DNA from: Burkholderiales bacterium 68-10 | GTDB taxonomy: Bacteria > Pseudomonadota > Gammaproteobacteria > Burkholderiales > Burkholderiaceae_C | Assembly: GCA_001897615.1 (NCBI GenBank) | Contig: MKTG01000070.1 | Span: 43,736-76,638 of the forward strand | Direction of reading: 5' to 3' | Length of the DNA stretch: 32,903 nt | Part shown: positions 676-26,721 of the stretch, piece by piece | Numbering within the stretch: position 1 is the first letter of the stretch | How the letters are laid out: every line of letters starts with the position of its first letter | Notes under the pieces: model-generated | What the model was told of the DNA's origin: nothing | The model's input: the letters and a program-made list of their open reading frames with translations, nothing else | Databases searched by the model: none | Position numbers and translations under genes: made by a program

Positions 676-1425
676 ATGCGACTGAGTGAGCTGCTGTTCA
701 GCCAGGGTTTCGGCACGCGCCGGGTCTGCGCCGGCCTGATCGAGCAAGGCCTGGTGCGGGTGGGCGGCGCCGCGTGCACCGACCCGGCGGCCGAGGTCGA
801 TCTGGCCGCCGGCGCGCCGCGGTTCGAGGTCCAGGGCCAGGCGTGGACCTTTCACGAACGCGCCTACCTGATGCTGCACAAACCGGCCGGCGTGGAATGC
901 TCGCACCGGCCGGGGCGCTGGCCGGGCGTCTACACGCTGCTGCCGGCGCCGCTGCGGCAGCGCCCGACGGCAGGCAAGGTGGCGGGCGTGCAGGCGGTGG
1001 GCCGGCTGGACCAGGACACCACCGGCCTGCTGCTGCTGTCCGACGACGGTGCCTTCATCCACCGCATGAATTCGCCGCGCCACCATGTGCCCAAGGTGTA
1101 CGAGGTGAGCACGCGCCACCCGCTGGACGAGCGCCAGCTGGCACGCTTGCGCGGCGGCGTGGTGCTGGACGACGACCCGCACCCGGTGGCCGCGGCGGCG
1201 GCCGAGGCGATGGGCCCCTGCCAGCTGCGGCTGACGCTGACCGAAGGCAAGTACCACCAGGTCAAGCGCATGGTGGCGGCGGTGGGCAACCGGGTCGAGG
1301 CGCTGCACCGCTCGCGCATCGGTGGCCTGGCGCTGCCGGCCGATCTGGCGCCGGGGCAGTGGCGCTGGCTGACGCCGCGGGAGCTGGCGCTGCTCGTGCC
1401 GTCGGCTCCCTGGCTCGGAGCTTGA
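676..1425 (+). CDS. rsuA: 16S rRNA pseudouridine(516) synthase
   Basis: MRLSELLFSQGFGTRRVCAGLIEQGLVRVGG (S4 domain), then LMLHKPAGVECS, AVGRLDQDTTGLLLLSDDG (catalytic GRLD motif), TEGKYHQVKRMVAAVGNRV. Confidence 0.92.
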   Translation: MRLSELLFSQGFGTRRVCAGLIEQGLVRVGGAACTDPAAEVDLAAGAPRFEVQGQAWTFHERAYLMLHKPAGVECSHRPGRWPGVYTLLPAPLRQRPTAGKVAGVQAVGRLDQDTTGLLLLSDDGAFIHRMNSPRHHVPKVYEVSTRHPLDERQLARLRGGVVLDDDPHPVAAAAAEAMGPCQLRLTLTEGKYHQVKRMVAAVGNRVEALHRSRIGGLALPADLAPGQWRWLTPRELALLVPSAPWLGA

Positions 1426-1428
1426 TCG

Positions 1429-1478
1429 GCTTTTTGACCTTGATGGACAAGCGCAAGCAGCTATTGTATTGATAGTGA
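1429..1478 (-). repeat. dispersed repeat copy 1
   Basis: Reverse complement: cactatcaatacAATAGCTGCTTGCGCTTGtccatcaaggtcaaaaag. Confidence 0.65.
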
Positions 1479-2352: not shown

Positions 2353-3369
2353 GTGGAGTTTGCCGAACTTCCGACTCTGACACGCCGCCAACTGCTGGTC
2401 GCTGGCGCCGGCCTGGGCGGCGCGGCGCTGGCGCCGTCCGCGCTGGCCGGGCCCGGGCGCTCGCCGGTGCTGGTGCTGAACTCGCTCGACGGCACCGTCA
2501 GCGTGATCGACCCCGTCCGCTGGGTGGAAACCGGCCGCATCGCCACCGGCAAGGAGCCGCACCACCTGTACATGACGCCGGACGAGAAGTCGGTCATCGT
2601 CGCCAATGCCGGCAGCGACTCGCTCACCTTCATCGACCCGCGCACGGCCACGGTGCAGCGCACGCTGCGCGGCATCATCGACCCCTATCACCTGCGCTTT
2701 TCGCCCGACATGCGCTGGTTCGTCACGGCCGCCAACCGCCTGAACCACATCGACCTGTACCGCTGGGACGGCGAGAACCCGGTGCTGGCCAAGCGCATCG
2801 CCACCGGCAAGACGCCCAGCCACCTGTGGATCGACAGCGGCAGCACCACCGTGTGGGCCAGCATGCAGGACAGCAACGAGCTGGTGGCCATCGACCTGGC
2901 GACGCAGCAGCTGGCGCACCGCGTCAAGACCGGGCCGATGCCGGCCGACGTCTACGTCACGCCCGACGAGCGCCACCTGCTGCTGGGCCTGACCGGCGGC
3001 GAGGGCGTGCAGGTGTTCGAGCTGGCCACCGGCCAGGCGCCCAGGGCGGTCGGCCAGGTGCCCACCGGCAAGGGCGCGCACGCGTTTCGCGCGCTGGGTG
3101 ACCGCCGACACGTGCTGGTCAGCAACCGGGTCGCCAACACCATCAGTCAGATCGACAGCACCCGCCTGGCGGTGGTGGCCGACTTTCCGGCGCCGGCCGG
3201 CCCCGACTGCATGGACGTGTCGGCCGACGGCAGCCTGATCATGGTCGGCTCGCGCTGGGCCGGCCGGCTGACGCTGATCGACGTGGCCAGGCGGCAGCCG
3301 GTGCACCAGGTCAGGGTCGGCAAGTCGCCGCACGGCGTGTGGACGCTGGACCATGCCGCGCGGGTGTGA
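2353..3369 (+). CDS. YVTN-family beta-propeller protein with Tat-like signal
   Basis: GTG start; TRRQLLVAGAGLGGAALAPSALA twin-Arg-like signal; repeated VLNSLDGTVSVIDP / VIVANAGSDSLTFIDPRT / HVLVSNRVANTISQIDSTR blades. Confidence 0.85.
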   Translation: MEFAELPTLTRRQLLVAGAGLGGAALAPSALAGPGRSPVLVLNSLDGTVSVIDPVRWVETGRIATGKEPHHLYMTPDEKSVIVANAGSDSLTFIDPRTATVQRTLRGIIDPYHLRFSPDMRWFVTAANRLNHIDLYRWDGENPVLAKRIATGKTPSHLWIDSGSTTVWASMQDSNELVAIDLATQQLAHRVKTGPMPADVYVTPDERHLLLGLTGGEGVQVFELATGQAPRAVGQVPTGKGAHAFRALGDRRHVLVSNRVANTISQIDSTRLAVVADFPAPAGPDCMDVSADGSLIMVGSRWAGRLTLIDVARRQPVHQVRVGKSPHGVWTLDHAARV

Positions 3370-3382
3370 GCACGGACGCATC

Positions 3383-4183
3383 ATGCAACGCCGAAATGCT
3401 ATTGTTACGATAGCTGCTGGCGCGCTCTGGACAAGCGCCAGAGGCCAAAATAGCTCTGAGCCCGGCGCGGCACCGCTGTACCTCACGTTCGACACCGGCC
3501 ACATGGGCATTGCCGCGCTGGTGGCCGAGGTGCTGCGGCGCCAGCAGGTGCGCGCGAGCTTCTTTGCCGCCAACGAGCGCACCCAGGAGGGCGAGGGCAG
3601 CCTGAGCCGCCACTGGGGCCCGTGGTGGAAGGCGCGCGCCGACGAAGGACACGAGCTGGCCTCGCACACCTGGGACCACGTCTACTGGCGCGCCGACCTG
3701 CCCGGGCGCGAGCCGCGCTTTCGGGTGCGCCCCTCGGCCGGCGCCTTTGCCGGGCGCGAATTCACCTGGAGCGCCGAGCAGTACTGCCAGAACATCGAGC
3801 AGGCCAGCGAGCGCCTGGCCTACTACAGCGGCAAGAAGCCCCTGCCGCTGTTTCGCGCCCCGGGCGGCAAGACCTCGCCGCGCCTGCTGGCGGCGGCCCG
3901 CGCCTGCGGCTACGCGCACGTGGGCTGGTCGCCGGCCGGCTTCCTGGGTGACGAGCTGCCCAGCGACAAGTACCCCAACCGCGTCTTGCTGGAGCGCGCG
4001 CTGAAGACGATCCGCCCCGGCGACATCCTGCTGGCGCACCTGGGCATCTGGTCGCGCCAGGACCCCTGGGCGCCGGCCGTGCTGGAGCCGCTGATCGAGG
4101 GGCTGAAGGCGCGTGGCTTCGTGTTCCGCACCCTGCGCCAGCACCCGCAATACGCGCCCTGGATCGCGCAGCAGCGCGCCTGA
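3383..4183 (+). CDS. polysaccharide deacetylase family protein
   Basis: LYLTFDTGHMG motif 1, HELASHTWDHVYW motif 2, PLFRAPGGKTSP motif 3, GDILLAHLG. Confidence 0.88.
   Translation: MQRRNAIVTIAAGALWTSARGQNSSEPGAAPLYLTFDTGHMGIAALVAEVLRRQQVRASFFAANERTQEGEGSLSRHWGPWWKARADEGHELASHTWDHVYWRADLPGREPRFRVRPSAGAFAGREFTWSAEQYCQNIEQASERLAYYSGKKPLPLFRAPGGKTSPRLLAAARACGYAHVGWSPAGFLGDELPSDKYPNRVLLERALKTIRPGDILLAHLGIWSRQDPWAPAVLEPLIEGLKARGFVFRTLRQHPQYAPWIAQQRA
3398..3460 (+). repeat. dispersed repeat copy 2 (in coding sequence)
   Basis: tgctattgttacgATAGCTGCTGGCGCgctctggacAAGCGCCAGAGgccaaaatagctctgag. Confidence 0.7.
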
Positions 4184-5170: not shown

Positions 5171-6046
5171 ATGACGCTGCTGCTTGACTCCTTCTGGCGC
5201 GCCGTCGCCTACTGCCTGCATCCGCGCGTGATCGCGCTGTCGCTGCTGCCGCTGGGCCTGCTGGTGGCGCTCAGCTTCGGGCTGGGTTACCTGTACTGGG
5301 CCTCGGCGCTGGCGGCAGTCACCGCCTGGCTCGACGCCTCGGTGGTGTTTTCCACCCTGTGGGGCTGGCTCGGCCAGCTGGGCGCTGGCGAGTTGCGCCA
5401 GGGCATTGCGCCGGTGCTGCTGGTGCTGCTGGTCGCGCCGGTGCTGATCGTGCTGGCGCTGCTGCTGGTGGCCCTGCTGATGACGCCCGCCGTGCTGCGA
5501 CTGGTGGCGACACGGCGTTTTGCGACGCTGGAGCGGCACGGTGCCAGCTCGATGCTGGGCTCGGCCCTGTGGTCGCTGGGGCACACCGTGCTGGCACTGG
5601 CGGCGCTGGCGCTGTCGCTGCCGCTGTGGCTGGTGCCGCCGCTGATCCTGATCTTGCCGCCCCTGATCTGGGGCTGGCTGACCTACCGGGTGATGAGCTA
5701 CGACGCCCTCGACGCCCACGCCAGCCGCGCCGAGCGGCGCGCCATCCTGCGCCAGCACCGCACGCCGCTGCTGGCGATGGGCATCGTCTGCGGCTACCTG
5801 GGCGCGGCGCCAGCCCTGGCCTGGGCGTCGCTGACGCTGTTCGCCGTGGCCTTCGCGGTGCTGATCCCGCTGGCGATCTGGATCTACACCCTGGTGTTCG
5901 CCTTTTCCGCCCTGTGGTTCACCCACTACTGCCTGTCGGCGCTGCAAACGCTGCGCCAGAGCGCGCCAACAGCTATCGAAATAGAAGCGAAGGCGGCCAC
6001 GGCACCGGCCGCCGACGCACCCGCCGCCCTGTCCCATGAGCCCTGA
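5171..6046 (+). CDS. EI24 domain (CysZ-like) membrane protein
   Basis: MTLLLDSFWRAVAYCLHPRVIALSLLPLGLL..., multiple TM helices, YDALDAHASRAERRAILRQHR. C-terminus carries a copy of the dispersed repeat. Confidence 0.85.
   Translation: MTLLLDSFWRAVAYCLHPRVIALSLLPLGLLVALSFGLGYLYWASALAAVTAWLDASVVFSTLWGWLGQLGAGELRQGIAPVLLVLLVAPVLIVLALLLVALLMTPAVLRLVATRRFATLERHGASSMLGSALWSLGHTVLALAALALSLPLWLVPPLILILPPLIWGWLTYRVMSYDALDAHASRAERRAILRQHRTPLLAMGIVCGYLGAAPALAWASLTLFAVAFAVLIPLAIWIYTLVFAFSALWFTHYCLSALQTLRQSAPTAIEIEAKAATAPAADAPAALSHEP
5951..5990 (-). repeat. dispersed repeat copy 3, degenerate (in coding sequence)
   Basis: Reverse complement: tcgcttctatttcgATAGCTGTTGGCGCgctctggcgcag. Confidence 0.5.
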
Positions 6047-8659: not shown

Positions 8660-9190
8660 ATGAAGTCTTTGCTGCCGACCCTCCGTGTATCGCTTGTCGC
8701 CGCGACGCTGGCCGCCGCGGCTGTGCCCGCGGCGGCCCAGGACCGCATCTACCGCTGCGGCAACGAATACACCAACCAGCCCAAGGGCCGGCCGGACTGC
8801 AAGCTGGTGGAGGGCGGCAACGTCACCATCGTGCGCGGCACCGCACCCGCGCCCGCGGCGCCCGCGGCACCGGCGGCTGGCGGCGGTGCAGCGCCCGCGG
8901 CACGCTCCGCCGGGACAGCACCGGCCTCGGCACCGCGTATCGACAACGCCGAGCAGCGCAAGCGCGACGCCGACGCCAAGGCCATCTTGCAGCAGGAGCT
9001 GCGTCGTGCCGAGGCCCGGCAGGCCGAGTTGGACAAGGAATACAAGGGTGGCGAGCCCGACAAGATCGGCGGCGAGGCGCGCAACCACCAGAAATACCTG
9101 GACCGCGTGGCCGAACTGAAAGCCGCCATCGAGCGCAACCAGAGCGACATCGAGGGCATCAAGCGCGAGCTGGGCCGGCTCGGCCCCTGA
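8660..9190 (+). CDS. secreted DUF4124-like protein with coiled-coil C-terminus
   Basis: Signal peptide MKSLLPTLRVSLVAATLAAAAVPAAAQ, DRIYRCGNEYTNQPKGRPDCKLVEGGNVTI, Ala/Pro linker, charged C-terminal helix. Confidence 0.7.
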   Translation: MKSLLPTLRVSLVAATLAAAAVPAAAQDRIYRCGNEYTNQPKGRPDCKLVEGGNVTIVRGTAPAPAAPAAPAAGGGAAPAARSAGTAPASAPRIDNAEQRKRDADAKAILQQELRRAEARQAELDKEYKGGEPDKIGGEARNHQKYLDRVAELKAAIERNQSDIEGIKRELGRLGP

Positions 9191-9349
9191 GAGCCTGTGA
9201 AAAAATACCTCGCGCCCGCCCGAGCCGCCAAAACGCGCCCGCTCTTCGTTGCAAATCCTCGCCGTAGCCCCGGCTACGGCTGCGGTCTGCGCCTCGATCG
9301 GACGCGTTTTGACGACCCTTTCGGACGCGATCAATTCATTCACAGGCTC
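9191..9349. mobile_element. MITE-like inverted-repeat element
   Basis: Terminal inverted repeats GAGCCTGTGAA (9191-9201) / TTCACAGGCTC (9339-9349), nested arms GCCAAAACGCG / CGCGTTTTGACG and CCGTAGCCccGGCTACGG; TGA directly on both flanks. Confidence 0.65.
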
Positions 9350-9379
9350 TGAGCCCGGTTTTTCCGGCAGGGCTGCCGG

Positions 9380-26623: not shown

Positions 26624-26721
26624 CCGAACGCAGAGGGCGCAGAGGGATCGCAGAAGACGCAAAAAATTTCTGGATTCTTCTTCTGCGACTTCTGCGCAAT
26701 CTTTGCGTCCTCTGCGTTCGG
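26624..26721. repeat. 98-bp imperfect palindrome of CGCAGAGG-type units
   Basis: Left arm CCGAACGCAGAGGGCGCAGAGGGATCGCAGAAGACGC; reverse complement of right arm CCGAACGCAGAGGACGCAAAGATTGCGCAGAAGTCGC. Confidence 0.75.

Follow-up and report, generated by a model that had tools for sequence, protein, structure and literature searches.

In Yersinia pestis, the enterobacterial repeat unit RU-2, a small dispersed repeat, encodes residues 1-30 of the predicted signal peptide of YPO1552, and the relatives of YPO1552 have signal peptides that are unrelated to RU-2 (Delihas 2007, PMC2759123). In-frame repeat inserts are also known from Rickettsia and from other REP-rich genomes (PMC3733652), and the Rickettsia palindromic elements (RPEs) of Ogata, Claverie and colleagues are, as they are cited in PMC3733652 and PMC2759123, short repeats that lie in frame within protein genes. 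The window considered here, the whole stretch of 32,903 nucleotides that was analysed, holds a polysaccharide deacetylase gene that resembles the YPO1552 case, in that a dispersed repeat forms part of its probable signal peptide and repeat-free orthologues have unrelated ones. The gene, its upstream neighbor and the elements of its 5' end are the following.

2353-3369, plus strand: YncE-like beta-propeller gene, upstream (PF21783, E 2.7e-147), ending 13 nt before the deacetylase ATG
3383-4183, plus strand: polysaccharide deacetylase gene, 266 aa, starting at ATG 3383, a start conserved in relatives
3383-3397, plus strand: n-region MQRRN with two arginines, outside the repeat core (translation and repeat boundaries)
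3398-3448, plus strand: repeat copy in the deacetylase gene, model positions 1-51 of 57, 43.3 bits, E about 1e-11 to 2e-11 (0.8 Mb search)
3398-3448, plus strand: repeat-encoded residues 6-22 (AIVTIAAGALWTSARGQ), h-region and cleavage region (repeat model match)
3437-3445, plus strand: predicted signal-peptidase site A19-R20-G21 before Q22 (heuristic A-x-G)
3485-3505, plus strand: motif TFDTGHM, where the NodB-type domain starts, downstream of the repeat (translation, Pfam)

The deacetylase matches PF01522 with 65.3 bits against a cut-off of 23.1 (E 6.5e-18, Pfam), and translation from the ATG at 3383 reads MQRRNAIVTIAAGALWTSARGQNSSEPGAAPLYLTFDTGHMG. Its first NodB motif is TFDTGH instead of the usual TFDDG, a variant that is conserved in the orthologues and possibly defines a distinct deacetylase subfamily. 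The repeat copy begins 15 nt past the first base of the ATG; in a local search it reached an E value of 4e-15, and the 78-column model of the repeat extends it to 3395-3464. An earlier note on this DNA had claimed that a repeat just after the ATG encodes the N-terminus of the deacetylase, and the profile match bears this out for residues 6-22. The note had also raised a start downstream of the repeat, a candidate that we reject: no in-frame ATG, GTG or TTG occurs between 3383 and 3503, that is, before the catalytic motif TFDTGH, and because an intact domain requires an upstream start, the repeat must be translated. In a relative (L063), a stop codon closes the frame just upstream of the deacetylase start, so that only the equivalent ATG can be its start. 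Codon choice in the repeat is foreign to this genome: ATA, found at residue 10, has a frequency of 0.35 per 1000 codons in 568 predicted genes and accounts for 0.8% of the Ile codons, and it occupies a conserved place in the repeat, which marks this N-terminal segment as repeat-derived.

By heuristic, the N-terminus has the features of a Sec-type signal, namely basic MQRR, hydrophobic AIVTIAAGALW and A-R-G before Q22, and the sister genome L061 reads A-R-A (ARAQN) at the predicted signal-peptidase site. The hydrophobic stretch and the cleavage-like end are supplied by the repeat, as the earlier note had held. Residues 6-22 are the core of a probable Sec signal peptide, and the mature protein would be released by cleavage after G21.

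The repeat itself is abundant in this genome, with 545 copies of its core (ATAGCTGCTNGCGC) at no more than one mismatch in 3.64 Mb, against eight for the reversed pattern. With a 57-nt profile of the copies (consensus GCTATTAAATTGATAGCTGCTGGCGCTCGCCGGGCAAGCGCTAGAGCCCGATTTGAT), nhmmer detects 177 copies in 0.80 Mb of the genome and none in the reversed sequence. In these 0.80 Mb, where gene context was assigned with a rough home-made gene caller, about two-thirds of the copies are intergenic, with 30 lying between convergent and seven between divergent genes, and the remaining third or so overlap predicted genes in several frames. Among the 72 genomes of the family, the core is abundant in about 25, and it falls to background level outside the family; the named carriers Comamonas badia, Polaromonas glacialis and Xenophilus all belong to the Comamonadaceae. 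An Rfam scan of the window matched no family, and our search of the open-access literature, with subscription papers outside its scope, returned no description of this repeat. For 115 intergenic copies, RNAalifold returned neither a consensus fold nor coherent covarying pairs, and we reject a stem-loop reading of the repeat for want of covariation support among them. The window contains six clear copies and one weak copy; those other than the deacetylase copy are listed below.

1425-1475, minus strand: intergenic repeat copy, 30.3 bits
5956-5990, minus strand: weak antisense repeat copy, 14.3 bits
9383-9438, plus strand: intergenic repeat copy, 37.3 bits
26558-26612, plus strand: intergenic repeat copy, 36.8 bits
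30006-30059, minus strand: repeat copy antisense inside a predicted gene, 40.3 bits
32584-32637, plus strand: repeat copy in a doubtful predicted gene, 45.0 bits

When the copy at 1425-1475 was compared with L061 and L062, the corresponding junction in L062 held no match, and the divergence of L062, the single presence/absence comparison, is too great for the target to be defined or for a target-site duplication to show; no such duplication was found for the repeat. The weak copy at 5956-5990 encodes part of the C-terminal tail (APTAIEIEAK) of an EI24/CysZ-like protein (PF07264). The window also carries long imperfect inverted repeats of another type at 9187-9353 (58-nt arms, 74%) and at 26624-26721 (41-nt arms, 80%).

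To place the deacetylase copy in an evolutionary context, we compared its orthologues. A targeted search finds the repeat in 40 of 102 non-redundant orthologue N-termini (E < 0.01), in the identical place, sense strand and frame, and the best E value in the reversed control was 1.5. In the loci around the gene, 34 repeat matches fall at -100 to 0 and 19 everywhere else. The earlier note had pointed to orthologues without the repeat as the relevant comparison, and in those of Variovorax, Ramlibacter, Pseudacidovorax and others the equivalent position is occupied not by the repeat's peptide but by an unrelated signal peptide of similar length. The distribution follows the abundance of the repeat: with repeat-rich genomes defined as those with at least 50 cores, 21 of 24 rich genomes and one of 25 repeat-poor genomes carry the repeat in the deacetylase signal peptide (Fisher p 1e-9), and the number of copies correlates with its presence (Spearman 0.80), both statistics ignoring kinship; only two phylogenetically independent pairs are fully supported, too few for a test. 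The repeat-rich genomes that do not have it are G032, G051 and G063. In a follow-up of repeat-rich genomes from other genera, G033, G038 and G039 carry the repeat as predicted and G032 does not. Residues shared among members of the genus and Comamonas, such as the W in LWTSA, suggest inheritance as well as re-insertion.

In the frame used by the deacetylase, the repeat consensus reads [AT]-x-x-L-I-A-A-G-A-R-x-x-S-A-x-A, which in its predicted properties is a ready-made signal-peptide core. The deacetylase copies nevertheless differ from open intergenic ones. Over the first 12 residues that the repeat encodes, hydrophobicity averages 1.91 in the deacetylases and 0.80 in 78 intergenic copies with an open frame (p 1.5e-14, an overstated value because related sequences are not independent, although the direction is uniform), and residues 4-12 are free of D, E, K, R, N, Q and H in 38 of 43 deacetylase copies against 17 of the 78. 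Such a loss of charged and polar residues would be expected if the segment acts as the h-region of a signal peptide.

The deacetylase is not the only gene of this kind. A scan for repeat copies that overlap signal-peptide-like N-termini, covering 0.8 Mb of the genome and about 1.5 Mb from relatives, gave an SLT_2/MltB-type transglycosylase, an SCO1/SenC lipoprotein and a lipoprotein without a Pfam family, which were then traced through their orthologues; all three bear the repeat in the window's own genome too. Repeat-encoded signal peptides occur in 15 of 19 repeat-rich and none of 10 repeat-poor genomes for MltB, in 15 of 16 and one of 14 for SCO, and in 13 of 19 and none of nine for the lipoprotein, families that were chosen since one member showed the feature; the scans that yielded the additional families required signal-peptide features, and the counts carry some selection bias. 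When the whole genome was searched with a profile of repeat-type signal peptides, the deacetylase, MltB and SCO genes ranked first, their own members being part of the profile, and a 161-aa lipoprotein (L374) and a 193-aa exported protein (L399) were added. A TPM-domain protein has an antisense repeat copy within its signal peptide. Hence at least seven proteins of the genome, the deacetylase and others unrelated to it, have probable signal peptides encoded by the repeat. Two peculiarities appeared among these families: the MltB-type gene at G003:C1:3623599-3624539 is split into two frames, by a frameshift or an assembly error, and in L346, L350 and L352 a second, unrelated repeat-like peptide (SPSPRWGEGRGEG) lies directly upstream of the repeat-encoded signal peptide of the lipoprotein.

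Copies also lie in frame in proteins without export features. Conserved cytosolic enzymes of the window's own genome contain the repeat internally at L150:7021-7076 (C48), C41:22476-22526 (L170) and C12:14887-14940 (L174), in a CCA nucleotidyltransferase, a Cu-oxidase_4 laccase and a probable ThiL, respectively. A cytosolic CysN-like GTPase of this genome is extended at its N-terminus by the repeat at C8:19815-19863 (L173; MNTNTINSIAAHAYPASAAAQN), and the extension has no signal-peptide features. In three genomes, a probable GNAT-type protein has an internal in-frame copy at a common site (SLIAVGA..), which is not a signal peptide, at these positions.

L166:12080-12130: internal copy in the GNAT-type protein
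L208:16819-16869: internal copy in the GNAT-type protein
L259:17697-17739: internal copy in the GNAT-type protein

To account for these distributions, we propose as the probable explanation that the repeat has recurrently been co-opted as a signal peptide at the 5' ends of exported genes and subsequently polished by selection. The earlier note had proposed co-option as an export signal; this is supported as a reading, but its scope was too narrow, as the phenomenon recurs across several genes and many species. The copies would have been spread by some enzyme. One open frame of the Comamonadaceae repeat would provide hydrophobic Ile-Ala-Ala-Gly-Ala followed by small residues, as a Sec signal peptide needs, and copies landing at the 5' ends of genes for exported proteins would be tolerated and take over as signal peptide; they may survive there because hydrophobicity and small residues are all that a signal peptide requires, and one frame supplies both. 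Point mutations under selection would then remove the charged residues, and the gene sites that are occupied in most repeat-rich relatives would have been filled partly by inheritance, partly by new insertion and probably also by conversion from copies elsewhere. The lipoprotein without a Pfam family provides evidence for more than one event: its repeat is in plus orientation in seven genomes and in minus orientation in six (up to 51 bits), the latter six grouping as a separate clade in the tree of the deacetylase, and opposite orientations at one site imply at least two events. The silent sites point in the same direction. At third codon positions of the deacetylase copies, the repeat subfamily of the own genome ranks first in seven of nine genomes (permutation p 1e-5), in a test that controls base composition and leaves position-specific mutation bias as a possible confounder; the other families gave p 0.0007 for MltB, 0.017 for SCO and a weak 0.04 for the lipoprotein. 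This match to the host's own subfamily implies that each lineage either acquired its copies by renewed insertion or had them overwritten with sequence from elsewhere in the repeat family.

These observations weigh differently on the alternatives. A single ancient insertion in the ancestor of the Comamonadaceae, inherited and faded wherever a match is now absent, agrees with the identical position, strand and frame everywhere, with the W-T residues common to several lineages and with faded-looking peptides in repeat-poor relatives, such as FAIFFIAIQAVNTSATAQN in L046. We consider it doubtful as a full account: silent sites that track the subfamily of each host, and a lipoprotein parallel with two orientations in sister clades, argue against it, as does the deacetylase tree, on which the presence of the repeat needs seven changes in the rich/poor set and 17 in the larger set, at least seven of these forced by supported branches. 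It is possible, and we advance it tentatively, that gene conversion from dispersed copies has rewritten an old signal-peptide copy time and again, so that it stays like the local subfamily; most repeat-rich genomes being occupied at equal sites with a host-subfamily match would follow from this, and the near-constant gene length looks like overwriting and not like net insertion, but no 50-nt tract of conversion between divergent copies was directly observed, and the orientation flip is better explained by new insertions. Signal peptides are low-complexity sequences with much I, A, G and L, and IAAGA-like stretches are frequent among them, but a chance match of the DNA by convergence is extremely improbable and is rejected on the reversed controls and the silent sites: E values at the DNA level go down to 4e-15 with no match in the reversed control, the rare ATA (0.8% of Ile codons) sits at the conserved place of the repeat and third positions fit the subfamily, and convergence needs equal match rates in repeat-poor genomes, in which one of 25 was observed. 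The repeat might instead matter at the 5' end for the RNA, in translation start or mRNA stability, the peptide being incidental. The scarcity of intergenic copies between divergent relative to convergent genes (7 and 30), like that of REP-like RNA elements, and two conserved short palindromic half-sites would fit such a role, which we think very unlikely given that the 115 intergenic copies show no covariation for a stem-loop and that the signal-peptide copies are altered at exactly the codons for charged residues.

Recurrent co-option would constitute a natural example, replicated many times, in which a non-coding dispersed repeat gave rise to new coding sequence, and its success would have a simple reason, in that one frame of the repeat already resembles a signal peptide. 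The dozens of species, the several genes, the two orientations and the matched relatives without the repeat make the turnover of signal peptides and the passage from repeat to protein directly testable. It is conceivable, as a speculation, that the repeat family acts as a dispersed signal-peptide library, in which segments of exported genes are continually refreshed by insertion or conversion from intergenic copies; if so, a non-coding repeat and a class of protein parts would evolve together, in concert. The results also carry a warning for annotation, as a simple codon-based gene caller skipped the real start here, and gene calls in Comamonadaceae may be wrong at the 5' ends of exported genes.

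Compared with known repeat systems, the Comamonadaceae repeat is similar to REP elements and REPINs in its hundreds of small, partly palindromic, mostly intergenic copies that are rare between divergent genes. It differs from REPIN-RAYT systems in its size of about 57-70 nt, in a consensus that has no GTAG or CGTC tag and in a genome that has no Y1/RAYT transposase gene; PF01797 is absent under a search that was positive in five control genomes, and mobilisation by a RAYT is rejected on this ground. MITEs are likewise short, non-coding, high in copy number and presumably non-autonomous, but the consensus here has no long terminal inverted repeats, and neither a parent transposase nor another mobilising enzyme was found. 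The likeness to RPEs lies in in-frame insertion into conserved genes in several frames, as in the CCA nucleotidyltransferase, Cu-oxidase_4 laccase, CysN-like and ThiL-like proteins; the host is unrelated, and the stable palindromic hairpin of RPEs is not seen among 115 copies of the Comamonadaceae repeat. RPEs are described as surface-exposed inserts and not as export signals. RU-2 is a different and longer element (168 bp), known in this role from one gene in one genus. Against this one-gene precedent and the known in-frame RPE inserts, what is new in the Comamonadaceae repeat is its occurrence in several genes, at least seven in one genome, in several genera and in both orientations, with a dose relation to the number of repeats.
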